Shown in pieces: positions 8,612 to 37,653 of a stretch of DNA of 43,538 nucleotides. Source of the DNA: an uncultured Lachnospiraceae bacterium. GTDB taxonomy: Bacteria > Bacillota > Clostridia > Lachnospirales > Lachnospiraceae. The stretch lies in the NCBI GenBank assembly GCA_947179245.1, contig CAMXBD010000008.1, forward strand, positions 1-43,538. Reading direction: 5' to 3'. The notes beneath the pieces are model-generated. The model saw only the letters and a program-made list of their open reading frames with translations. It did no database searches and had not been told where the DNA came from. A program made the position numbers and the translations under genes. Positions within the stretch are counted from its first letter, which is position 1. Each line of letters begins with the position of its first letter.

Positions 8612-11600
8612 ATGGGCACGCAGAGTAAGCAGAAGAACAGAGATGTATCGAGACAGGCGGAGGAGAAGTATCTTGAACAGACGCTCGATGTCGTAAGGGA
8701 TAATCTTACAAATTATGGACGGGAAGTGTCGCGGATGCAGGATGATATCGATGAGATGCTGGCGCATTATCATGATAATGACACGGAAGTACTCACTATT
8801 CTGAATAATACCGTGACCATGCACGAGCATATGAAGCGGGCGCTTCTGCGGAATGAAAAGGCACTGAATAAGCCGTACTTCGGAAGAATCGTTTTTCATG
8901 ACGAGGCGCTTGACAAAGAGGAGTCCATCTATATCGGCAAGGGCGGGATATCCAAAGATACTACCCATTGGGTGGTGGTGGACTGGCGGGCGCCAGTGGC
9001 TAATGCATATTATGAGAATGGTCTTGGCAGGTGCAGTTACGAAGCGCCGGGCGGTGTACAGATGTGGATCGATCTGGAACTAAAGCGTACCTATGAGATT
9101 GATGAAGGGAAACTCCTCGACTATTTTGACAGCGAGGTGATTGCCAATGACGATCTGCTGACGAAGTATCTTGCCAAAAATAAACAGGCGGTTTTGAGTG
9201 AGATTGTTGCAACCATTCAGAAAGAGCAAAACGAGATTATCCGGAAATCGCCCTACCATAATATTATCGTACAGGGTGTTGCAGGTTCGGGCAAGACTAC
9301 TGTGGCGATGCACCGGATATCCTATATCCTGTATAACTATGAAGAACGCTTCAAGCCGGATGATTTCTATATTGTGGGGAGTAACCGCATACTGCTTAAC
9401 TATATCACGGGTGTCCTGCCCGATCTGGATGTGTACGGGATCCGGCAGATGACAATGGAGCAGCTTTTTGTCAGACTTTTGTACGAGGATTGGGATGATA
9501 AAAAGTATCGTATCAAGGGCACGGATACGAGCAGGAGCGAGAGTGTCAAAGGCGGGTCTGAGTGGTTCAAAGATCTGGAAGCTTATTGTCAGAAACTGGA
9601 ATATGACACGATATCCTGCAAGTCTGTCTACCTTAATCCGAAGCAGTTTGTGGAGGGGATAAGAGATGGTAAAATCGGTGTATTTGATGAGACGGGCGGA
9701 CGGGTTACGGATACAAGAGCCTTAGTCTGTCTGCTTGAGGGTGATTCGGTGGAGCGATATATCCGACAGAACCCTGCGGTGTCCGTTCAGAGTAAGATCA
9801 ACATGCTGAATAGTCGTCTGAGGGGTAAGATCAAAGAAGAATTTCTCGGAAAAGGCGTTAAGTATACCGAGGCTGAACGCAAAGCGATTCTCAAGGCTTA
9901 CCGCGGACATTACGGCGGTAAGGTGTGGAAACAATCTATTTTTGAGCTGTATCAGGATTTTCTGCTGAGACAGAATGAAAAGGGATATGGTGTCAATATA
10001 CCGGACGATGAGTTCGATGTCTATGATCTGGCGGCGCTTGCCTATCTTTACAAGAGGATTAAGGAGACGGAGGTAATCAGCGAAGCGCATCATATCGTAA
10101 TAGACGAGGCGCAGGATTTCGGAATGATGGCCTATCTTGTTCTGAAATTCTGTATTTACCGGTGCACTTACACTATCATGGGTGATGTTTCCCAGAATAT
10201 TCATTTCGGCTATGGGCTGAATGACTGGGAAGAATTAAAAAGCTTGTTTCTGCCAGATCCCATGGACAGCTTCGGCATTCTTAAGAAAAGCTACCGCAAT
10301 ACAGTGGAAATATCAGATTTTGCTACGAACATTCTGCATCACGGTCAGTTTTCCATCTATCCGGTGGAACCAATCATAAGGCATGGCACTCCGGTACAGG
10401 TGCGCCAGCTTGCGGACAGGCGGACCATGATCCGCACAGCTGCGGATATGTGCAGAGGATGGATGCAAAAAGACGGAATGGGCATCCAAGGAGAACAAAG
10501 CGGTTATGGAGAAACGGCTCACATAAACAGCGGTGGATTAGATACGATAGCTGTTGTCTGCAGAGATCAGACAGAAGCCGCCGCAGTGGCTAAGGAACTG
10601 TCTCAGTATATAGATGTGGTTGAAAGTGATCCGGAGAAGACGGAGTTTGGAAGCGGAATCATGGTGCTGCCGGTGGAATATACCAAAGGTCTGGAATTTG
10701 ACGCAGTACTGATCTTGAATCCCTCACGGGAAAAATATCCGGTGGACGATGGCCACGCCAAACTGCTCTATGTGGCAGCGACACGTGCGCTCCATGAACT
10801 GTGCGTACTCCATACAGGAAATCTTACAGGGCTGATTGCGGATCCGATACCGCATCCGCAACCGAAGCCTGTACAGAAGCCGGCCGAAAATCCAGCATTT
10901 ACAGAGACAAAACCGGACAGAATGGTTAAGAAAAATGTGTCTATTGTCCGCAACCAGCTGGCGGATGAAACGGGTAAGAGCAATAAGCCGGCAGCTAAAG
11001 GCAGGAAGGTGTCTGCTAAAGGCAAAGAAATAATCGCAAATACCCCTGACATGACAATGCAGAAGAAATCGCCTGCTCCTGAAATACCTGCAATATCTAA
11101 AGAACGAAAGAGTATACCAGATGCCCGCGGCAGCATCAAATTCGGCGATATGCCGCCAACGGAAAAACTCCGCCCTCTGGGGCATGGTAAAATTGATTTG
11201 TCGGTAAAGTGGACTTCTAAGCAACAGGACGGGCTTTATATGCATAGCCGTTACGGCGTTTTGCGCTTAAGTCCTATCGGCAGTGCAATCGTGAGAGTGA
11301 CTTTTGCAAAAGGCGGGCAGATTATTGACGGGGTAAACGAGCAGATTGCAGTGCATTCTACAGATAAAAGATGGATGTACAAAGAATCCGGCGCTGCGGT
11401 AGACCTTATGACAGACGAACTGCTGATTCAGGTGGATAAATCTACGGGAGCAATCCGCTACATGACGCGGGACAAGAAATTGCTTGTGGCTGAACGGACT
11501 AAAGAATGCCGGCAACTGGAAAGTAATCCGGATGGAAGATACAAAACATGGCTCTATCTCGACTGGCAGAAGAATGAGACTGTATATGGCATGGGTGCGG

Positions 11601-11863
11601 GAGATGCGGCTGGAATGAATCTGCGAAAAACCGCACGGTATATTTCGCACGGGAACGGTACCGGGGAACTGCCGTTTATTTTGTCAGAGCAGGGTTACGG
11701 AATCGTTCTGGCGGCAGACAGCCCTGTGATGAGCTGTGACATTCCGGCGTACGGTTCTTATCTTTACGCCGAGAGTGAGAAGCAGATGGATTTCTATTTT
11801 ATAACCGGAAAGCGTCAGAATACGATCATGAATGCATATGCATATCTTTGCGGGAAGCTGTGA
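8612..11863 (+). CDS. HelD-like UvrD-family helicase fused to a GH31 N-terminal-like beta domain
   Basis: The 1083-residue protein has two parts. Residues 1-about 760 are a complete HelD-type SF1 ATPase: an N-terminal coiled coil, GVAGSGKTT (Walker A, about 223), IDEAQDFG (Walker B, about 497), MGDVSQNIHFGYG, LKKSYRNTVEIS, EYTKGLEFDAVLI and VAATRALHEL. HelD binds RNA polymerase and helps release stalled complexes. A Lys/Pro-rich linker (about 760-865) follows. Residues about 870-1083 resemble the galactose-mutarotase-like N-terminal domain of GH31 glycosidases: RYGVLRLSPIGSAIVRVTF, TDELLIQVDKSTGAIRYM, ETVYGMG, ELPFILSEQGYGIVL, MDFYFITGKRQNTIMNAY. The catalytic barrel that should follow is absent. 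HelD is normally about 700-780 residues. The ATG has AAAGGAGGT upstream. Confidence 0.88.
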   Translation: MGTQSKQKNRDVSRQAEEKYLEQTLDVVRDNLTNYGREVSRMQDDIDEMLAHYHDNDTEVLTILNNTVTMHEHMKRALLRNEKALNKPYFGRIVFHDEALDKEESIYIGKGGISKDTTHWVVVDWRAPVANAYYENGLGRCSYEAPGGVQMWIDLELKRTYEIDEGKLLDYFDSEVIANDDLLTKYLAKNKQAVLSEIVATIQKEQNEIIRKSPYHNIIVQGVAGSGKTTVAMHRISYILYNYEERFKPDDFYIVGSNRILLNYITGVLPDLDVYGIRQMTMEQLFVRLLYEDWDDKKYRIKGTDTSRSESVKGGSEWFKDLEAYCQKLEYDTISCKSVYLNPKQFVEGIRDGKIGVFDETGGRVTDTRALVCLLEGDSVERYIRQNPAVSVQSKINMLNSRLRGKIKEEFLGKGVKYTEAERKAILKAYRGHYGGKVWKQSIFELYQDFLLRQNEKGYGVNIPDDEFDVYDLAALAYLYKRIKETEVISEAHHIVIDEAQDFGMMAYLVLKFCIYRCTYTIMGDVSQNIHFGYGLNDWEELKSLFLPDPMDSFGILKKSYRNTVEISDFATNILHHGQFSIYPVEPIIRHGTPVQVRQLADRRTMIRTAADMCRGWMQKDGMGIQGEQSGYGETAHINSGGLDTIAVVCRDQTEAAAVAKELSQYIDVVESDPEKTEFGSGIMVLPVEYTKGLEFDAVLILNPSREKYPVDDGHAKLLYVAATRALHELCVLHTGNLTGLIADPIPHPQPKPVQKPAENPAFTETKPDRMVKKNVSIVRNQLADETGKSNKPAAKGRKVSAKGKEIIANTPDMTMQKKSPAPEIPAISKERKSIPDARGSIKFGDMPPTEKLRPLGHGKIDLSVKWTSKQQDGLYMHSRYGVLRLSPIGSAIVRVTFAKGGQIIDGVNEQIAVHSTDKRWMYKESGAAVDLMTDELLIQVDKSTGAIRYMTRDKKLLVAERTKECRQLESNPDGRYKTWLYLDWQKNETVYGMGAGDAAGMNLRKTARYISHGNGTGELPFILSEQGYGIVLAADSPVMSCDIPAYGSYLYAESEKQMDFYFITGKRQNTIMNAYAYLCGKL

Positions 11864-19004: not shown

Positions 19005-19748
19005 ATGGAAACATACATTGATATTCACTGCCACATTCTGCCGGGGGTAGATGATGGTTCGGACAGCTTGGAGACAAGCATGGAAATGTTACATATGGCA
19101 GACGAAGACGGAATCTCACAGATCATCCTCACGCCTCATGATAAGCCTTGGCACAGAAAGATGGACTATACCCGGATAAATGCTTTGGTTGATCAGCTTC
19201 AGGAACGTCTGTGTCAGGAAGGAATGGATATAAGGCTGTACATGGGCAGCGAGCTGTATTACCGCAACGGTCTGACAGAGGAGCTTGATCAGGGGGATGC
19301 AGTAACTTTGGCTAATTCCCAATATGTACTTGTTGAATTTGATCCTTTAGCCGATTATGATTACATAAGAAGTGGTGTCTACGCATTGCTCATGGGAGGG
19401 TATTATCCCATTGTGGCGCATGTAGAGCGATATAAGAATGTATGTTGTAAGATGAGCAGAGTCATTGAGTTGATTGATATGGGCAGCTTTATGCAGGTGA
19501 ATGCAGGAAGTATCACAGGTCAATACGGGATCAGCGCGAAACAGCTTACGAAGAAAATGTTGAAACAGGACCTAATCCACTTTGTCGCTACAGACGCCCA
19601 TGATTTGAATAGAAGACAGCCATGTCTTTCACAATGTGCACAATACATTGGGAAAAAATATGGAGAAAGCAGCAGGAGACGATTGTTTTACGATCATCCG
19701 ATGTGCGTGCTGCATGATGAATACATAAGGAATCGGAAAGAAGACTGA
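19005..19748 (+). CDS. cpsB: CpsB/YwqE-type tyrosine-protein phosphatase (PHP fold)
   Basis: A 247-residue PHP-domain phosphatase. Metal-binding motifs are DIHCHILPGVDDG (residues about 6-18), TPHDKP, GSELYY, AHVERY and TDAHD. In capsule operons CpsB removes phosphate from the tyrosine cluster of CpsD and so tunes polymer length and export. It is the first gene after the predicted promoter and is followed two bases later by the CpsC-like gene. GGAG lies just upstream of the ATG. Length and motif order match the family. Confidence 0.92.
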   Translation: METYIDIHCHILPGVDDGSDSLETSMEMLHMADEDGISQIILTPHDKPWHRKMDYTRINALVDQLQERLCQEGMDIRLYMGSELYYRNGLTEELDQGDAVTLANSQYVLVEFDPLADYDYIRSGVYALLMGGYYPIVAHVERYKNVCCKMSRVIELIDMGSFMQVNAGSITGQYGISAKQLTKKMLKQDLIHFVATDAHDLNRRQPCLSQCAQYIGKKYGESSRRRLFYDHPMCVLHDEYIRNRKED

Positions 19749-19749
19749 T

Positions 19750-20475
19750 ATGGAAAATCATAGAGAAAGCGATGTCATTGAAGTAGACTTGCTGGAAATT
19801 ATTAATATTTTGTTTAGAAGATTTTGGATTATTTTGGGAGCGGGGTTGTTAGCAGCAGTGATCGGTTTTGTGATCAGCAAGTTTGTGCTGACGCCTACCT
19901 TTGAATCCACTACTAAGATTTACATACTGAATAAGTCAGAAAACACGACGGTTACATACAGTGATGTACAGATGGGAACACAGCTCACCAAGGATTATGC
20001 AGAACTGATTAATAGCCGATATGTATTAGAGACAGTTATTCAGCAGCTGTCCCTGCCGGAGACGGAGTATAAGGATCTGTTAAAGAAAGTCAGTGTGAAT
20101 ACACCTACAGATACACGAATCGTATCCATTACCGTGACAGACATCGACCCGCAGCAGGCGCAAAATATTGCCAACTGTATCAGAGAAGTGGCGGGGGAAC
20201 ATATCCAGAATGTGATGGATATTGATGCGGTCAATGTGGTAGAAGAAGCCAATCTGCCTACAAGGAAGGCAGGACCAAGCGGATTGAAATGGACGGCGGT
20301 CGGCGGTATGCTGGGAGTATTTCTGGTATGTGCGGTTATCCTGATACACTATCTATTGGATGATACGATCAAAACGTCGGAAGATGTAGAGAAATATCTT
20401 GGGTTGAGCACATTAGCGCTGATACCGGTTGCGCCGGGCGAAAATGATGGCAAGCAGAAGAGTAAGAGGAAGTAA
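19750..20475 (+). CDS. CpsC/Wzz-type chain-length determinant, kinase activator
   Basis: A 241-residue membrane protein with helices at about residues 22-42 and 177-197 and an extracellular loop between them, the usual Wzz layout. The N-terminal EVDLLEIINILFRRFWII is typical of the CpsC/CapA/YveK branch. From the family, its short cytoplasmic tail activates the separate tyrosine kinase encoded next, and the pair controls polysaccharide chain length. The kinase gene starts two bases after its stop. Confidence 0.92.
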   Translation: MENHRESDVIEVDLLEIINILFRRFWIILGAGLLAAVIGFVISKFVLTPTFESTTKIYILNKSENTTVTYSDVQMGTQLTKDYAELINSRYVLETVIQQLSLPETEYKDLLKKVSVNTPTDTRIVSITVTDIDPQQAQNIANCIREVAGEHIQNVMDIDAVNVVEEANLPTRKAGPSGLKWTAVGGMLGVFLVCAVILIHYLLDDTIKTSEDVEKYLGLSTLALIPVAPGENDGKQKSKRK

Positions 20476-20477
20476 AT

Positions 20478-21488
20478 ATGCAGGATGTCAAATTGCATTT
20501 GGATCAACGTGCAGATTTTCATACAAAAGAAGCTTTTAAGACGCTGCGAAGCAATGTGGAGTTCTGCGGCAGTGATGTGAAGGTCGTTGCTGTGACGAGC
20601 TGTACGCCGCACGAGGGCAAGACGAGTGTTGCTATGGAGCTGGCGCGGTCTTTTGCCGAGGCAGGTAACAGAACACTGTTGATTGACGCGGATATGAGAA
20701 AATCCGTGCTGGTGGGCAGGTATAAGACCGGTGTAGTTAAGTATGGGTTGAGCCATTGTCTGATTGGAAAATATAAATATACAGAAGCTATGTGCCAGAC
20801 GGATATTCCACGTCTCTATATGTTCTTTTCCGGACCGGTGCCGCCGAATCCGAGCGAGCTTCTCGGAAGTGAGAGATTCGCCGACATGCTGAATGTGATG
20901 CGGACGGCTTTTGATTATATCATTATAGATACACCGCCGCTTGGCAGTGTCATTGATGCCGCTGTGGTGGCAAAGAGATGTGACGGCACGGTATTGGTAG
21001 TGGAGAATAACGCAGTCAGCTACCGTTTTGTCCAGAGAGTAAAAGAACAGTTGGATAAATCCGGGAGCCGTATTCTGGGAGTCGTTTTAAATAAAGTTGA
21101 CCTCAGCGGCAAGGGCTATTATGGACATTACGGCAGATATTATGGTAAATACTATGGTAAATATTACGGTAAGTATGGTTACGATACCGAGCCGGCTCCT
21201 GAGCAAAAGCGTGAAAGACAGATAGAACCGGCGAAAACAGGAAGAACTGAGCGGCAGGAGAGCTCAGAACGATTGGATCGCTTGGAGAGAGCGGAGCGTC
21301 TGGACCGATTGGAGCGTTCAGAGCGGTTGGAACGCTCAGACCGATTAGAACGTTCAGAGCGGCTGGAACGGTTAGAGCGGCCAGAGCGATTGGAACGTTC
21401 AGAACGGTTAGAACGGTTGGAACGCTCAGAAAGACCGGAGCGACTGACAGAAACGGAAAAAAAAACGGTAAGAAGAAGTATTTTGTAG
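20478..21488 (+). CDS. cpsD: CpsD-type tyrosine autokinase with long charged C-terminal repeat
   Basis: A 336-residue frame. Residues 1-about 210 are the BY-kinase: Walker A in CTPHEGKTS (about 44-52), Walker A' LLIDADMRKS (about 66-75) and Walker B YIIIDTPP (about 147-154). Next comes the tyrosine cluster with repeated YYGK/YGKY (about 214-236), the autophosphorylation site. In typical CpsD the protein ends here. This one continues with a Arg/Leu/Glu-rich repeat (about 250-322, units like RLERSE) and ends at TAG 21486 after a nine-A run at 21457-21465. A -1 shift on that run joins it to the LCP frame, giving one protein of about 677 residues. The TAG product alone would carry a meaningless tail TVRRSIL. 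Confidence 0.9.
   Translation: MQDVKLHLDQRADFHTKEAFKTLRSNVEFCGSDVKVVAVTSCTPHEGKTSVAMELARSFAEAGNRTLLIDADMRKSVLVGRYKTGVVKYGLSHCLIGKYKYTEAMCQTDIPRLYMFFSGPVPPNPSELLGSERFADMLNVMRTAFDYIIIDTPPLGSVIDAAVVAKRCDGTVLVVENNAVSYRFVQRVKEQLDKSGSRILGVVLNKVDLSGKGYYGHYGRYYGKYYGKYYGKYGYDTEPAPEQKRERQIEPAKTGRTERQESSERLDRLERAERLDRLERSERLERSDRLERSERLERLERPERLERSERLERLERSERPERLTETEKKTVRRSIL
21270..21447 (+). repeat. Tandem repeat encoding RLERSE-like units
   Basis: About ten degenerate 15-18 bp units (TTGGAACGCTCAGAGCGG type) encode alternating RLERSE, RLERLE and RLERPE. It is rich in Arg and Glu in a pattern expected for a long charged helix. The copies differ by single bases. Confidence 0.85.
21457..21465 (+). other. 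A9 slippery run, putative frameshift or slippage site between cpsD and LCP frames
   Basis: Nine consecutive A bases follow ACGG. Reading GAA AAA AAA then shifting one base back gives AAC GGT AAG AAG AAG TAT TTT, which runs straight into the Lys-rich and membrane segment of the LCP protein. GGAG at 21437-21440 lies 16 bases upstream. It could act in translation (-1 frameshift), transcription (polymerase slippage), or as a phase-variable A9/A10 tract. Confidence 0.65.
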
Positions 21489-21505
21489 CCGTATGTACTA
21501 TTCTC

Positions 21506-22510
21506 GTGATTTTCGGGCTGTTATTGGCCGGTTCCGTGATTGTCAGAGCAATAGGAAAGCATCGGTTATATAATAAACCTGTTACCACACAGCCTGAATT
21601 GCAGACCGCTGTGGGAGAAGAAATCCTGACGGAAGCAGAGAGTGAGAAATGGCAGGAAGGATGGGTCAAATATCAAGGAACCATCTACGAATACAATGAA
21701 GAAATCCTGACTTTTCTGATTATGGGCATTGATAAGCAGGATGATGTCGAAGAGGTGGCAGAAGGCACCGATGGCGGGCAGGCAGATGGATTATTTCTGT
21801 TAGTAATCAATCCGAAAGACAAGAGCATCAAAGTGGTAGGTATCAACAGAAATACCATGGCAGATGTTGACATATATGATAACAAGGGAGAATATACATC
21901 CACGGTTAAAGCGCAGCTTGCCATACAGCATGGATTTGGCAATGGTATGGAAGAAAGCTGTGAATATCAGAAAAAAGCGGTGGAGAACTTGTTCTACCAG
22001 CTTCCCATACATGGATATGCTGCAGTCAATATGAGCGCTGTTGCCACAATCAATGATGCAGTGGGCGGTGTTGATGTGACGGTTCCCGGTGATCTGGCAG
22101 GATTCAATGAGGATTTCGTGGAAGGACGCAGTCTGCACCTGATGGGAGAGAATGCTTTCTGGTATGTAAAGTACAGAAATACTGACGTATTTGGTTCGGC
22201 GGATATGAGGCTGGACAGACAGAAACAGTATTTGAATGGCTTTATTGATGCGGCGAAGCAGTCGGTACATAAGGATGCTTCTGTAGTCATAGACTTGTAT
22301 CAGGCGGTGAAGCCGCAGATGGTCACAGATGTTTCTCTGGATGAGGTGGCATACCTTGCGCCGATTCTGGCAGATTATAGATATGATATGGATGATTTCT
22401 ATACTTTGCAGGGAGAAACTGTGATGGGAGAGCAGTACGAAGAATTTTACCCGGATGAAGATGCTATGTTTGAGATGATATTGGATATATTTTATGAAAA
22501 AGTTCAGTAG
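21506..22510 (+). CDS. LytR-CpsA-Psr (LCP) family ligase, N-terminus supplied by the cpsD frame
   Basis: The frame encodes an LCP catalytic domain: FLIMGIDKQD, DGLFLLVINPKDKSIKVVGI followed by NRNTM (conserved Arg), DAVGGVDVTV, WYVKYRN and SADMRLDRQKQYL (Arg pair). LCP proteins move polysaccharide from its lipid carrier to peptidoglycan outside the cell. The first canonical start in this frame is GTG 21506, which lies inside the membrane helix (YFVAVCTILVIFGLLLAG). No ATG, GTG or TTG occurs between the last in-frame stop (TGA 21248) and 21505. The helix and the preceding KKNGKKK are encoded from about 21458, so the natural N-terminus most likely comes from cpsD through the A9 run. Starting at 21506 would lose half of the helix. 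Confidence 0.85.
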   Translation: MIFGLLLAGSVIVRAIGKHRLYNKPVTTQPELQTAVGEEILTEAESEKWQEGWVKYQGTIYEYNEEILTFLIMGIDKQDDVEEVAEGTDGGQADGLFLLVINPKDKSIKVVGINRNTMADVDIYDNKGEYTSTVKAQLAIQHGFGNGMEESCEYQKKAVENLFYQLPIHGYAAVNMSAVATINDAVGGVDVTVPGDLAGFNEDFVEGRSLHLMGENAFWYVKYRNTDVFGSADMRLDRQKQYLNGFIDAAKQSVHKDASVVIDLYQAVKPQMVTDVSLDEVAYLAPILADYRYDMDDFYTLQGETVMGEQYEEFYPDEDAMFEMILDIFYEKVQ

Positions 22511-23333
22511 ATGGAAAAAACATATTATAAGAGATGCTGTGTCCCTTGCATCGGTAGCATGTATCCTGACAGGGTGCGGAAAGAGTGGCGGGGGAGCACA
22601 GGATGATGTGCAGGCAGAAATTTCCGATGAGACCGCCGAATCGGTACAGACAGCAGAAACTGCCGATGAGAATGCCGAACCGGTACAGACAACAGGAATT
22701 GCCGGTGAGAGTGCCGCGGATGCGCTGATAGACTTTGCGGCGTTGCAGGAAGAGAATCCGGAGATCTTCGCATGGCTTTATATACCGGAAACGAATATAG
22801 ACTGTCCGGTGCTGCAGAGCGTCCGGGGAGATGATTTTTATGAGAGTCATGATGCTTTCGGGCAGGAAAATGACGACGGGGCTGTCTATATCGAACTCGC
22901 AAATCTGGCGAGCATGTGTGATTTCAACACGGTGATGCATGGCAGGACAGGTGCAGATGAGAGCGGACCTTTCGCTGGGTTGTATCAGTTTGCTGATCCG
23001 GACTTTTTTGAGAAACATGAGAGTTTATATTTATATCTGGATGGCAATGTCCTGACATATGAGATATTTGCCGCTTATGAAAGAGAAAATACGAGCCTGC
23101 TTCGCAGCTATGATTTTACTTATCTGGAGGGCTGTGAAGAGTTTTTGAATGATTTGTACAGCATCAGGGATATGACGATGAATCTGCGTGAGGGCTGGGA
23201 AGGCGTCACACCATATCACTTCCTGATTACTCTGACTACGCAGAGAGAAGATGACGCTGACAGACAGTTTGTTGTTCTTGCGATTCTGACACAGGATGCT
23301 GCAGGGACCATTGATCGAATCGTTGCTGAATAG
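22494..23333 (+). CDS. Sortase B-like lipoprotein lacking the catalytic cysteine
   Basis: A 279-residue protein with a lipoprotein signal (ILTGC, Cys near residue 25) and an Asp/Glu/Thr/Gln-rich linker (to about residue 75). Residues about 80-279 have the class B sortase layout: WLYIPETNIDCPVLQ, then FYESHDAFGQENDDGAVYI, TVMHGRTGADESGPFAGLYQ with the catalytic His (about 149), and ITLTTQREDDADRQFVVLAI, where the Arg (about 257) is kept. The expected cysteine (L-S/T-T-C) is Gln here (about residue 250). It overlaps the end of the LCP gene by 17 bases. Enzymatic transpeptidation is unlikely; a binding or scaffold role in the polysaccharide locus is possible. Confidence 0.75.
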   Translation: MKKFSRWKKHIIRDAVSLASVACILTGCGKSGGGAQDDVQAEISDETAESVQTAETADENAEPVQTTGIAGESAADALIDFAALQEENPEIFAWLYIPETNIDCPVLQSVRGDDFYESHDAFGQENDDGAVYIELANLASMCDFNTVMHGRTGADESGPFAGLYQFADPDFFEKHESLYLYLDGNVLTYEIFAAYERENTSLLRSYDFTYLEGCEEFLNDLYSIRDMTMNLREGWEGVTPYHFLITLTTQREDDADRQFVVLAILTQDAAGTIDRIVAE

Positions 23334-36308: not shown

Positions 36309-36336
36309 AATTCCAAGCTGCCCGGACAGAATGGGA

Positions 36337-37143
36337 GCACATATGTTAGATATCTGTTTATTGGGAACAGGAGGCATGATGCCGCTGCCTCACAGGTGGC
36401 TTACATCGTTGATGGCGCGGTATAATGGGACGAGCATACTGATTGACTGCGGGGAGGGAACACAGATCGCAATGAAGGAAAAGGGCTGGAGCCCGAAGCC
36501 TATCGACATCATCTGTTTTACCCACTATCATGCGGATCATATCAGCGGTTTGCCCGGTATGCTTTTGACTATGGGCAATGCGGAGCGGACAGAGCCGCTT
36601 TTGCTCATCGGTCCCAAAGGACTTACAAAAGTAGTGAACGCCCTGCGCGTGATTGCGCCGGAGCTTCCTTTTGAGATCAGATGCATGGAACTGACAGAGC
36701 CGGAACAGTCGGTTGCTTTCGACGGTTTTCGGATCGAGGCACATATGTTAGATATCTGTTTATTGGGAACAGGAGGCATGATGCCGCTGCCTCACAGGTG
36801 GCTTACATCGTTGATGGCGCGGTATAATGGGACGAGCATACTGATTGACTGCGGGGAGGGAACACAGATCGCAATGAAGGAAAAGGGCTGGAGCCCGAAG
36901 CCTATCGACATCATCTGTTTTACCCACTATCATGCGGATCATATCAGCGGTTTGCCCGGTATGCTTTTGACTATGGGCAATGCGGAGCGGACAGAGCCGC
37001 TTTTGCTCATCGGTCCCAAAGGACTTACAAAAGTAGTGAACGCCCTGCGCGTGATTGCGCCGGAGCTTCCTTTTGAGATCAGATGCATGGAACTGACAGA
37101 GCCGGAACAGTCGGTTGCTTTCGACGGTTTTCGGATCGAGGCA
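36337..37143 (+). repeat. Exact 402-bp tandem duplication within rnz
   Basis: Bases 36337-36741 and 36739-37143 read identically, with a period of 402 (134 codons) and a GCA shared at the junctions, so the reading frame is kept. The identity over about 405 bases shows that it is recent or an assembly artefact. Confidence 0.9.
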
Positions 37144-37653
37144 TATAGGGTTAATCACAATGTTGTCTGCTACGGATATAATATTGTAGTGGAGCGCATC
37201 GGTAAATTTGACGTAGCTAAAGCAGAAAAACTTAATATTCCGAGAAATTACTGGAATCGTCTGCAAAAAGGTGAGATAATAGAGACAGAAAATGGTAAAT
37301 TCACCCCGGATATGGTACTGGGTGAGCCGCGAAAAGGAATCAAGGTGACTTATTGTACGGATACCAGACCAACGGAAAGTATCGTGCGAAATGCTGTGGA
37401 TGCGGACCTTTTTATCTGTGAAGGCATGTACGGAGAGCCGGAGAAACTGCAGAAAGCCAGAGAATACAAACATATGACTTTCTATGAGGCGGCTGAAATT
37501 GCGAAGAGGGCCGGGGTGAAGGAGATGTGGCTGACACATTACAGCCCGTCATTGATCCGCCCGGAGGAATATATGGGGGCTGTGCGTAAGATATTCCCGG
37601 ATTCCATAGCGGCTAAAGATGGCAGAAGTGTAGACCTTCTGTTTACAGATTGA
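36343..37653 (+). CDS. rnz: Ribonuclease Z / MBL-fold hydrolase with duplicated N-terminal half
   Basis: The 436-residue reading frame contains an exact repeat of the first 134 residues. Removing one copy leaves about 302 residues, the usual length of RNase Z. Each copy has LDICLLGTGGMMPLPHRW and the metal motif THYHADHISGLPG (HxHxDH); the unique C-terminal part has YCTDTRPTES, DLFICEGMY and MTFYEAAEIAKRAGVKEMWL. RNase Z trims the 3' end of tRNA precursors that lack encoded CCA, which fits the CCA-less tRNA genes near 43.3 kb. GGGAG lies five bases before ATG 36343. The second copy keeps its own ATG (36745) with GAGG five bases upstream, so a normal protein could still be made. Whether the long form is active is unknown. 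Confidence 0.88.
   Translation: MLDICLLGTGGMMPLPHRWLTSLMARYNGTSILIDCGEGTQIAMKEKGWSPKPIDIICFTHYHADHISGLPGMLLTMGNAERTEPLLLIGPKGLTKVVNALRVIAPELPFEIRCMELTEPEQSVAFDGFRIEAHMLDICLLGTGGMMPLPHRWLTSLMARYNGTSILIDCGEGTQIAMKEKGWSPKPIDIICFTHYHADHISGLPGMLLTMGNAERTEPLLLIGPKGLTKVVNALRVIAPELPFEIRCMELTEPEQSVAFDGFRIEAYRVNHNVVCYGYNIVVERIGKFDVAKAEKLNIPRNYWNRLQKGEIIETENGKFTPDMVLGEPRKGIKVTYCTDTRPTESIVRNAVDADLFICEGMYGEPEKLQKAREYKHMTFYEAAEIAKRAGVKEMWLTHYSPSLIRPEEYMGAVRKIFPDSIAAKDGRSVDLLFTD

Follow-up and report, generated by a model that had tools for sequence, protein, structure and literature searches.

A conserved A run at the end of a capsule kinase gene in Lachnospiraceae as a probable recoding site joining CpsD to an LCP domain

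BY-type tyrosine kinases of capsule loci, such as CpsD and CapB, have a separate CpsC or CapA. In Wzc, the kinase is fused to a membrane component of the capsule machinery, a Wzz-type activator at the N terminus. LCP proteins are glycopolymer-to-wall transferases and are thought to fasten the capsule to the cell wall. Here, a joint between a CpsD kinase and an LCP protein is described in the window, a stretch of 43,538 nucleotides (contig CAMXBD010000008.1 of assembly GCA_947179245.1) from an uncultured bacterium of the Lachnospiraceae, a family typical of animal guts. The cpsD gene (20,478 to 21,488; all features are on the forward strand) ends shortly after a run of nine A's, and an LCP frame at -1 relative to cpsD is open across the same run. 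It is highly probable, judging by sequence comparisons, that this run is a site of programmed recoding, from which free CpsD and a fusion of CpsD, a transmembrane helix and an LCP domain would both be made.

The CpsD of the window shares a TIGR01007 kinase domain, a C-terminal tyrosine cluster and adjoining cpsB and cpsC genes with CpsD and CapB. Unlike those kinases, it would be extended at its C terminus by a linker, a membrane helix and an LCP domain, through recoding here and through gene fusion in a sister clade. Wzc, a relative of this CpsD in the PDB, is likewise fused to a membrane part, but the partner here is a wall ligase and lies at the C terminus. The LCP part shares PF03816, conserved Asp and Arg residues and one preceding helix with TagU/TagV, Cps2A/Wzg and LcpC. 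Unlike them, it has no ATG, GTG or TTG upstream of the helix, and its anchor and N terminus would come from the kinase gene.

To our knowledge, conserved programmed frame changes in ordinary bacterial cellular genes are few and mostly concern DNA replication, translation termination and mobile elements. The mxiE gene of Shigella is a case of programmed transcriptional slippage, and E. coli dnaX and the IS3 family use -1 ribosomal frameshifting on A_AAA_AAR. Like mxiE and the present locus, dnaX of Thermus thermophilus (A9 described in the available part of PMC1088944) and IS1447 of Clostridium thermocellum (A9 slippage in a clostridium, available part of PMC6211511) have an A9-type run and a second-frame product. 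The present locus differs from these three in that it is neither a mobile element, a polymerase subunit nor a regulator; a whole transmembrane enzyme would be added to a capsule kinase. Programmed slippage is known elsewhere, and the CpsD-LCP join would be a new target for such recoding. No report of a CpsD-LCP fusion, or of a frameshift that joins the two, was found by titles and abstract starts in the open-licence PubMed Central literature. PMC2632651, on the LCP family, does not mention "kinase" or "frameshift". As far as their available text goes, PMC3711429 and PMC5009743 do not mention the capsule and kinase terms tried, PMC12220298 does not mention "fused", and PMC13121745, on capsule genes of another gut species, has nothing on a CpsD-LCP joint.

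The frame joint in the window

The 0 frame of cpsD encodes 336 residues and matches TIGR01007 (E-value 2.2e-71), with CapB and Wzc as relatives in the PDB. Both the kinase domain, with what we take to be its Walker motifs, and the C-terminal tyrosine cluster GYYGHYGRYYGKYYGKYYGKYGY (21,114 to 21,182) are present. The cluster is followed by a charged linker (ERLERSERLERL...; 21,294 to 21,431) in which Tandem Repeats Finder detects 9- and 18-base repeats. The A9 run occupies positions 21,457 to 21,465, with the heptamer A_AAA_AAA at 21,458 to 21,464. Across it, the 0 frame reads GAA AAA AAA ACG GTA AGA AGA AGT ATT TTG TAG, the stop (21,486 to 21,488) lying seven codons past the heptamer. The LCP frame opens after a TGA at 21,248 to 21,250 and runs from 21,251 to 22,510, and the part that would be used starts at the A run.

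Read at -1 from the run, the sequence encodes KKNGKKKYFVAVCTILVIFGLLLAG. This begins with a positively charged stretch, KKNGKKKYFV (21,458 to 21,487), and continues with a strongly hydrophobic 19-residue window (21,488 to 21,544) that is taken as a single membrane helix from its hydropathy and its ratio of nonsynonymous to synonymous differences (pN/pS). The best 19-residue window has a mean Kyte-Doolittle value of 2.74 in the -1 frame and 0.07 in the +1 frame; the 0 frame has no stop-free stretch of 19 residues. The original prediction had placed the charged KKNGKKK and a full helix directly after the A9, and the -1 translation confirms this. Its statement that the LCP frame has no ATG, GTG or TTG between the TGA at 21,248 and a GTG at 21,506 in mid-helix is also correct on direct reading of the frame. 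This GTG (21,506 to 21,508) is inside the helix, since the -1 hydrophobic window spans that position, and it is judged not to be a true start. Of the codons ATG, GTG, TTG, CTG, ATT, ATA and ATC, only ATT is present in the LCP frame before it. The LCP catalytic domain (21,782 to 22,258) matches PF03816 (E-value 1.4e-19) and TIGR00350, aligns by sequence to the TagV and TagU structures and contains the conserved Asp and Arg residues. The joined product would have 677 residues, 329 codons to the second AAA and 348 after it, which agrees with the predicted length of about 677.

The run is the sole A9 or T9 in the window. Because shuffles of the window average 1.65, a single A9 is not unusual by itself, and the evidence that the run is not a matter of chance lies in relatives rather than in the window alone.

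Conservation of the joint among relatives

Seventy-seven genomes of the genus were searched with CpsD residues 1-217, and 35 match at E <= 1e-40, in 37 places. Eleven of these places combine an A run of 8 or 9 with an LCP frame at -1 (the slippage type). In 14 places, CpsD and LCP are in one continuous frame; 13 of these are complete (636-643 residues) and one (L066) is cut by a contig end. Two places (L063 and L064) have a different continuous fusion, of 718 and 725 residues counted from the alignment start, and in seven the LCP is a separate gene. No LCP is found within the stretch examined in the remaining three (L065, L067 and L068). Both the conserved A run and the continuous gene for which the original prediction proposed to search relatives are therefore found, the latter in a sister clade. 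L067 and L068 carry another CpsD type with poly-G tracts near its end (G11 at +812 and G9 at +823, respectively, from the cpsD alignment start). After the G tract, another frame encodes a similar tail, FDHLYQTVRKE in L067 and FDQLYHIVRKE in L068, which suggests slippage or phase variation of this C terminus.

Four more loci of the slippage type (L087, L088, L089 and L116) come from named genomes, in which 54 loci, including a distant match in Nostoc, were scanned. The total is 15 loci and 14 distinct sequences in one Lachnospiraceae genus and its near kin. L004 and L005 are identical over the compared stretch and are counted as one distinct sequence. The detailed tests cover 13 loci, with L088 left out as identical to L087 at the junction. 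Beyond the genus, 397 genomes of the family were searched, 30 of which have CpsD at E <= 1e-75, and 29 loci (L148-L176) were examined over about 2.1 kb from the CpsD start; three further match places and weaker CpsD relatives fall outside this set. Within that stretch, LCP is joined to CpsD in none of the 29 loci. It lies further downstream in four (L148, L151, L152 and L153), closest in L153, where it has its own ATG. In a different genus, L156 has an A9 at +821, about 100 bases past the cpsD stop.

Among the 14 distinct loci, the run is A9 in 11, A8 in two (L039 and L042) and A10 in one (L116). It occupies two codon phases, GAA AAA AAA ACG and GCA AAA AAA AAC. The LCP frame is nonetheless offset by -1 in all 14 and in frame in none, so that the predicted -1 join of cpsD to LCP at the run is conserved between loci with diverged flanks. 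Since the offset is kept though run length and phase have changed, neither error nor a random ON/OFF tract accounts for it easily. The phase switch and the sequencing error that had been named as alternatives are thus largely excluded, because runs of 8, 9 and 10 are all at -1.

Assembly or sequencing error, or decay of the gene, has a negligible probability. Homopolymers are error-prone and the source genome is a draft (3.4 Mb in 233 contigs, of which the window is C8; 87.6% complete), but 15 loci share the offset, and they belong to different genomes or records, including the named strain 1xD8-48 (L087), which carries the same A9. The LCP frames are also intact. In the alignment of 45 LCPs, which does not include L063 and L064, D66, D84, R105, R214, R225 and R228 (alignment numbering) are invariant in all 45, and we take these residues to be those of the active site.

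A phase-variable tract, in which A9 would be OFF and replication slippage to A10 would give a fused ON gene, is very improbable. Homopolymers mutate fast, and the poly-G tracts of 11 and 9 show that long tracts do occur near the end of a CpsD gene in the genus, but the offset shared by runs of 8, 9 and 10, although seen across relatives and not among strains of one species, does not fit such a switch. The proteins in the database point the same way. With the natural fusion of L009 as query, P0001-P0011 are full-length CpsD-LCP fusions of the main clade type, and P0013-P0024 (691-748 residues) contain both domains and belong by length and identity to a second fusion type (sequences of P0013 and P0015 read). 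No in-frame form of the slippage-type gene is among the best 120 of the 4429 proteins passing, where only candidates sharing most words were scored; such a form would be expected to rank above P0013. CpsD proteins whose short ending resembles what the 0 frame encodes after KK do occur, and at least seven (P0122-P0126, P0128 and P0220) are found with a CpsD query. Among these, P0123 matches L089, and the tails of P0126 and P0220 were judged by eye. P0176 also fits the tail pattern and could not be assigned. Taken together, the evidence weighs heavily against both sequencing error and phase variation.

The source genome contains nine runs of nine or more A/T (11 pattern hits), where about 129 are expected by a rough scaling of the window shuffles (1.65 per 43.5 kb). 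Two other coding genes of this genome with a sense-strand A9 were used as controls. In the first, a YlmC-like gene in which A9 encodes KKK, the run is 3-6 A in 20/20 readable relatives and the peptide is the same (of 30 loci, nine were dropped and 21 are readable by pattern, counting the gene of the source genome itself). In the second, a gene of 422 residues (C49, L141), the run is 3-5 A in 15/15 relatives with an alignment covering the site; among the 29 others compared with the own gene, the site is covered in 15 and uncovered in four, and 10 give no hit. The second control is weaker, as the peptide has changed as well. Because both controls lose A9 in relatives, the cpsD run is, by this comparison, kept where comparable runs elsewhere are not. 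It is present in 13/13 loci and conserved beyond codon use: the lysine codons upstream in the same 13 cpsD genes are AAA in 152 cases and AAG in 126, so the unbroken A tract is not simply a codon habit. In eight more distant loci with a separate LCP gene, all A runs from the tyrosine cluster to LCP are shorter than seven. The same genome also has a T9 inside a SpoIIGA-like sporulation protease gene (named by reading; L137, G000:C7:14002-14010).

The start of the LCP frame differs between the two kinds of locus. In the slippage type, no ATG, GTG or TTG lies upstream of the helix (0/13 loci). The first such codon is within or beyond the helix in 12/13, is at the first helix codon in L087, and in L010 does not appear until 123 bases past the run. 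In the eight more distant loci, a start codon upstream of the helix is ATG in five (L014, L078, L105, L111 and L119), GTG in one (L117) and only TTG in two (L108 and L115). In the five ATG-start genes, the ATG precedes the charged stretch and the full helix. These genes lie directly behind or overlap the cpsD end in L014 and L111, and the other three leave room for another gene. A predicted exported, repeat-like protein is encoded between cpsD and LCP in L078, L105 and L071, and the joined forms have no room for it. An independent LCP start with a full helix, which had been named as a finding that would count against the join, therefore does occur in relatives, but only where no run joins cpsD to LCP.

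The sequence past the run is most constrained in the -1 frame. Over the 26 codons past the heptamer, pN/pS in this frame is 0.59 in clade a (15 pairs), 0.37 in clade b (1 pair) and 0.13 in clade c (1 pair). The corresponding values are 1.06, 0.87 and 2.44 in the 0 frame and 0.85, 1.56 and 2.20 in the +1 frame, so that the -1 frame has the lowest value in each of the three clades. The count includes 10 of the 13 loci (L089, L116 and L010 were left out), and clade a was compared ungapped with L035 apparently one codon out of register, which weakens the contrast rather than helping it. On these values, the 26 codons past the run are under purifying selection in the -1 frame. A separate LCP protein, started inside its own frame (at a GTG or TTG in the helix or a non-standard codon) or by reinitiation after the cpsD stop, would leave this selection and the missing upstream starts unexplained. 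Such a protein is very improbable, despite the GTG codons at 21,506 in the window, at run+13 in L087 and at run+22 in L035 and despite the separate genes of more distant relatives.

The slipping machine and the order of the joined forms

Under the proposed recoding, normal decoding would give CpsD ending 5-8 codons past the heptamer, where the 0-frame stop lies in the 13 loci; this product would be a cytoplasmic tyrosine kinase that includes the tyrosine cluster. Some expression events would instead shift to the -1 frame at the run, and the chain would then extend over a stretch rich in lysine and arginine, a single membrane helix and an extracellular LCP domain. A cell would then have two CpsD forms, free and LCP-tethered, and the membrane anchor of LCP would be supplied only via the recoded product. 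The original prediction of one protein is supported as far as the fusion goes; CpsD alone is expected too, so the product would not simply be one protein. Most likely, RNA polymerase would slip, so that some transcripts gain one A. A -1 slip of the ribosome on A_AAA_AAA would yield the same protein and may contribute. We infer the occurrence and rate of recoding, and the identity of the slipping machine, from the comparisons that follow.

Some known cases of -1 frameshifting lack stimulators. Like E. coli dnaX and the IS3 family, the present loci have A_AAA_AAA in the 0 frame (13/13). Unlike those systems, they have no conserved stem-loop or Shine-Dalgarno stimulator, and the A_AAA_AAG form occurs in 0/13 loci, with a pure A tract used in its place. 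No conserved downstream fold was found in 10 loci and then in 13, with z below -2 in 1/13. Upstream, no Shine-Dalgarno match falls in the top 5% of the gene's windows in the 13 loci, the lowest fraction being 0.07 (L008). Ribosomal frameshifting with unchanged transcripts is a possible but less likely source of the join. The A8 runs of L039 and L042 are short for classical polymerase slippage, and A_AAA_AAA is among the motifs that shift by more than 0.10% without stimulators in E. coli (available part of PMC4066793). However, the heptamer itself is uninformative, as any run of nine contains one, and the three best heptamers in the same source (form V_VV.A_AA.G) reach only about 0.3% without stimulators.

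Because no stimulator is conserved, transcriptional slippage is favoured, and on these comparisons we judge it about twice as likely as a ribosomal -1 shift. The -1 join at the run that had been predicted is thus supported, with RNA polymerase as the more likely agent. The run of 8-10 A at the frame joint in 14/14 distinct loci is within the length of homopolymers at which slippage is expected (about 7-9 or more). In the available part of PMC6211511, the C. thermocellum A9 slips at about 16% in each direction, and mutagenesis indicates that seven A's suffice. Selection against A/T runs appears at length nine in a large proportion of genomes (PMC1088944, available part).

In sister species, which account for 14 genomes of the genus, a single ordinary fused gene encodes the same two parts. 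The CpsD tree unites the slippage type with the main fused clade in a group (80/71) within which the fused clade (100/99) is nested. In the LCP tree, the fused clade groups with one slippage clade and L014 (92/85), and the other slippage clade groups with L078 (98/87). The simplest reading of these trees is an order from separate genes to a slippage joint to a permanent fusion; two gains or recombination would also accord with them. The fusion of L063 and L064 falls elsewhere in both trees, and the CpsD-LCP fusion therefore arose at least twice on these trees. The CpsD found in the sister clade is the fused gene. This suggests a functional fusion, and free CpsD may not be needed. The fused locus L044 has an A7 that could be taken for what is left of the run; its base count does not fit simply and no claim is made. 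An AlphaFold model of the natural fusion of L009 (18 sequences) has low confidence, with a mean predicted local distance difference test score (pLDDT) of 61.6 and a predicted template modelling score (pTM) of 0.40, and was not used.

Several observations weigh against the recoding interpretation. The loci are related, so the 14 loci are not 14 independent events. Most named records are metagenome assemblies, and the L116 sequence includes N's. The expected number of long A/T runs is scaled up from shuffled window sequence rather than from a shuffled genome. Other A9/T9 runs exist in coding frames of the source genome, and one coding A9 alone would for this reason prove nothing. In L087, the GTG at run+13 is the first codon of the helix window, and in L035 the GTG at run+22 is one codon inside it. 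L006, alone among the loci, has a notable downstream fold (z -3.08). The CpsD and LCP trees (47 rows) support their order only moderately, and in the LCP tree the slippage type falls into two parts, near which lie the separate-gene rows L078 and L014.

The operon and the meaning of the joint

The locus is a capsule or exopolysaccharide operon. The gene order is cpsB, cpsC, cpsD, the LCP frame (to 22,510) and a sortase-like gene, with a sugar transferase further downstream. The cpsB gene (19,005 to 19,748) encodes a PHP-type tyrosine phosphatase of the CpsB/CapC kind (PF19567, E-value 4.4e-94), and cpsC (19,750 to 20,475) encodes a Wzz-type membrane activator (PF02706, E-value 4.8e-20; TIGR01006, E-value 8.4e-56). 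The sortase-B-like lipoprotein gene (22,494 to 23,333) overlaps the LCP stop and matches TIGR03064 at an E-value of 2.7e-23, under the curated cut-off. Its motif is TLTTQRE, to be compared with what we take to be the sortase motif, TLSTC, and the catalytic Cys seems to be absent. Elsewhere in the window, an RNase Z-like open reading frame (36,331 to 37,653; named by reading) has its first 130-140 residues present twice in tandem, which is either a true duplication or an assembly artefact. An open reading frame of 1083 residues (8,612 to 11,863) resembles, by reading, a UvrD/HelD-type helicase followed by a stretch like the N-terminal part of a glycosidase.

In other Firmicutes, the polymerisation and attachment functions are linked by protein contacts, in which a CpsC-type activator works together with the LCP ligase. 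In Staphylococcus, CapA1 enhances LcpC in vitro (PMC6441080, available part), and in pneumococcus, Wzg interacts with Wzd and depends on it for its placement (PMC9216600, available part). A chain of kinase, transmembrane helix and LCP would place the ligase within the complex of kinase and co-polymerase. Tethering would link the state of the kinase, or its contact with CpsC, to the attachment of the polymer to the wall. Since a 0-frame product is predicted as well, how much kinase is free relative to tethered would be set by the recoding rate. There is about an even chance that the slippage site sets the ratio of free to ligase-tied kinase, giving one molecule for polymer control and attachment at a fixed or regulated dose, and that the tract bridged separate genes before the fusion became fixed in the sister clade.

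If the recoding is real, the product is a chimera in which the protein that regulates capsule polymerisation is joined to the enzyme for attaching capsule to the wall. A gene caller blind to recoding would be expected to split such a gene and to start LCP inside its anchor. The covalent link would make the coupling of kinase and ligase directly testable. The slippage-type, fused and separate states occur side by side in one genus, and the origin of a gene fusion via a slippery tract would be testable there.

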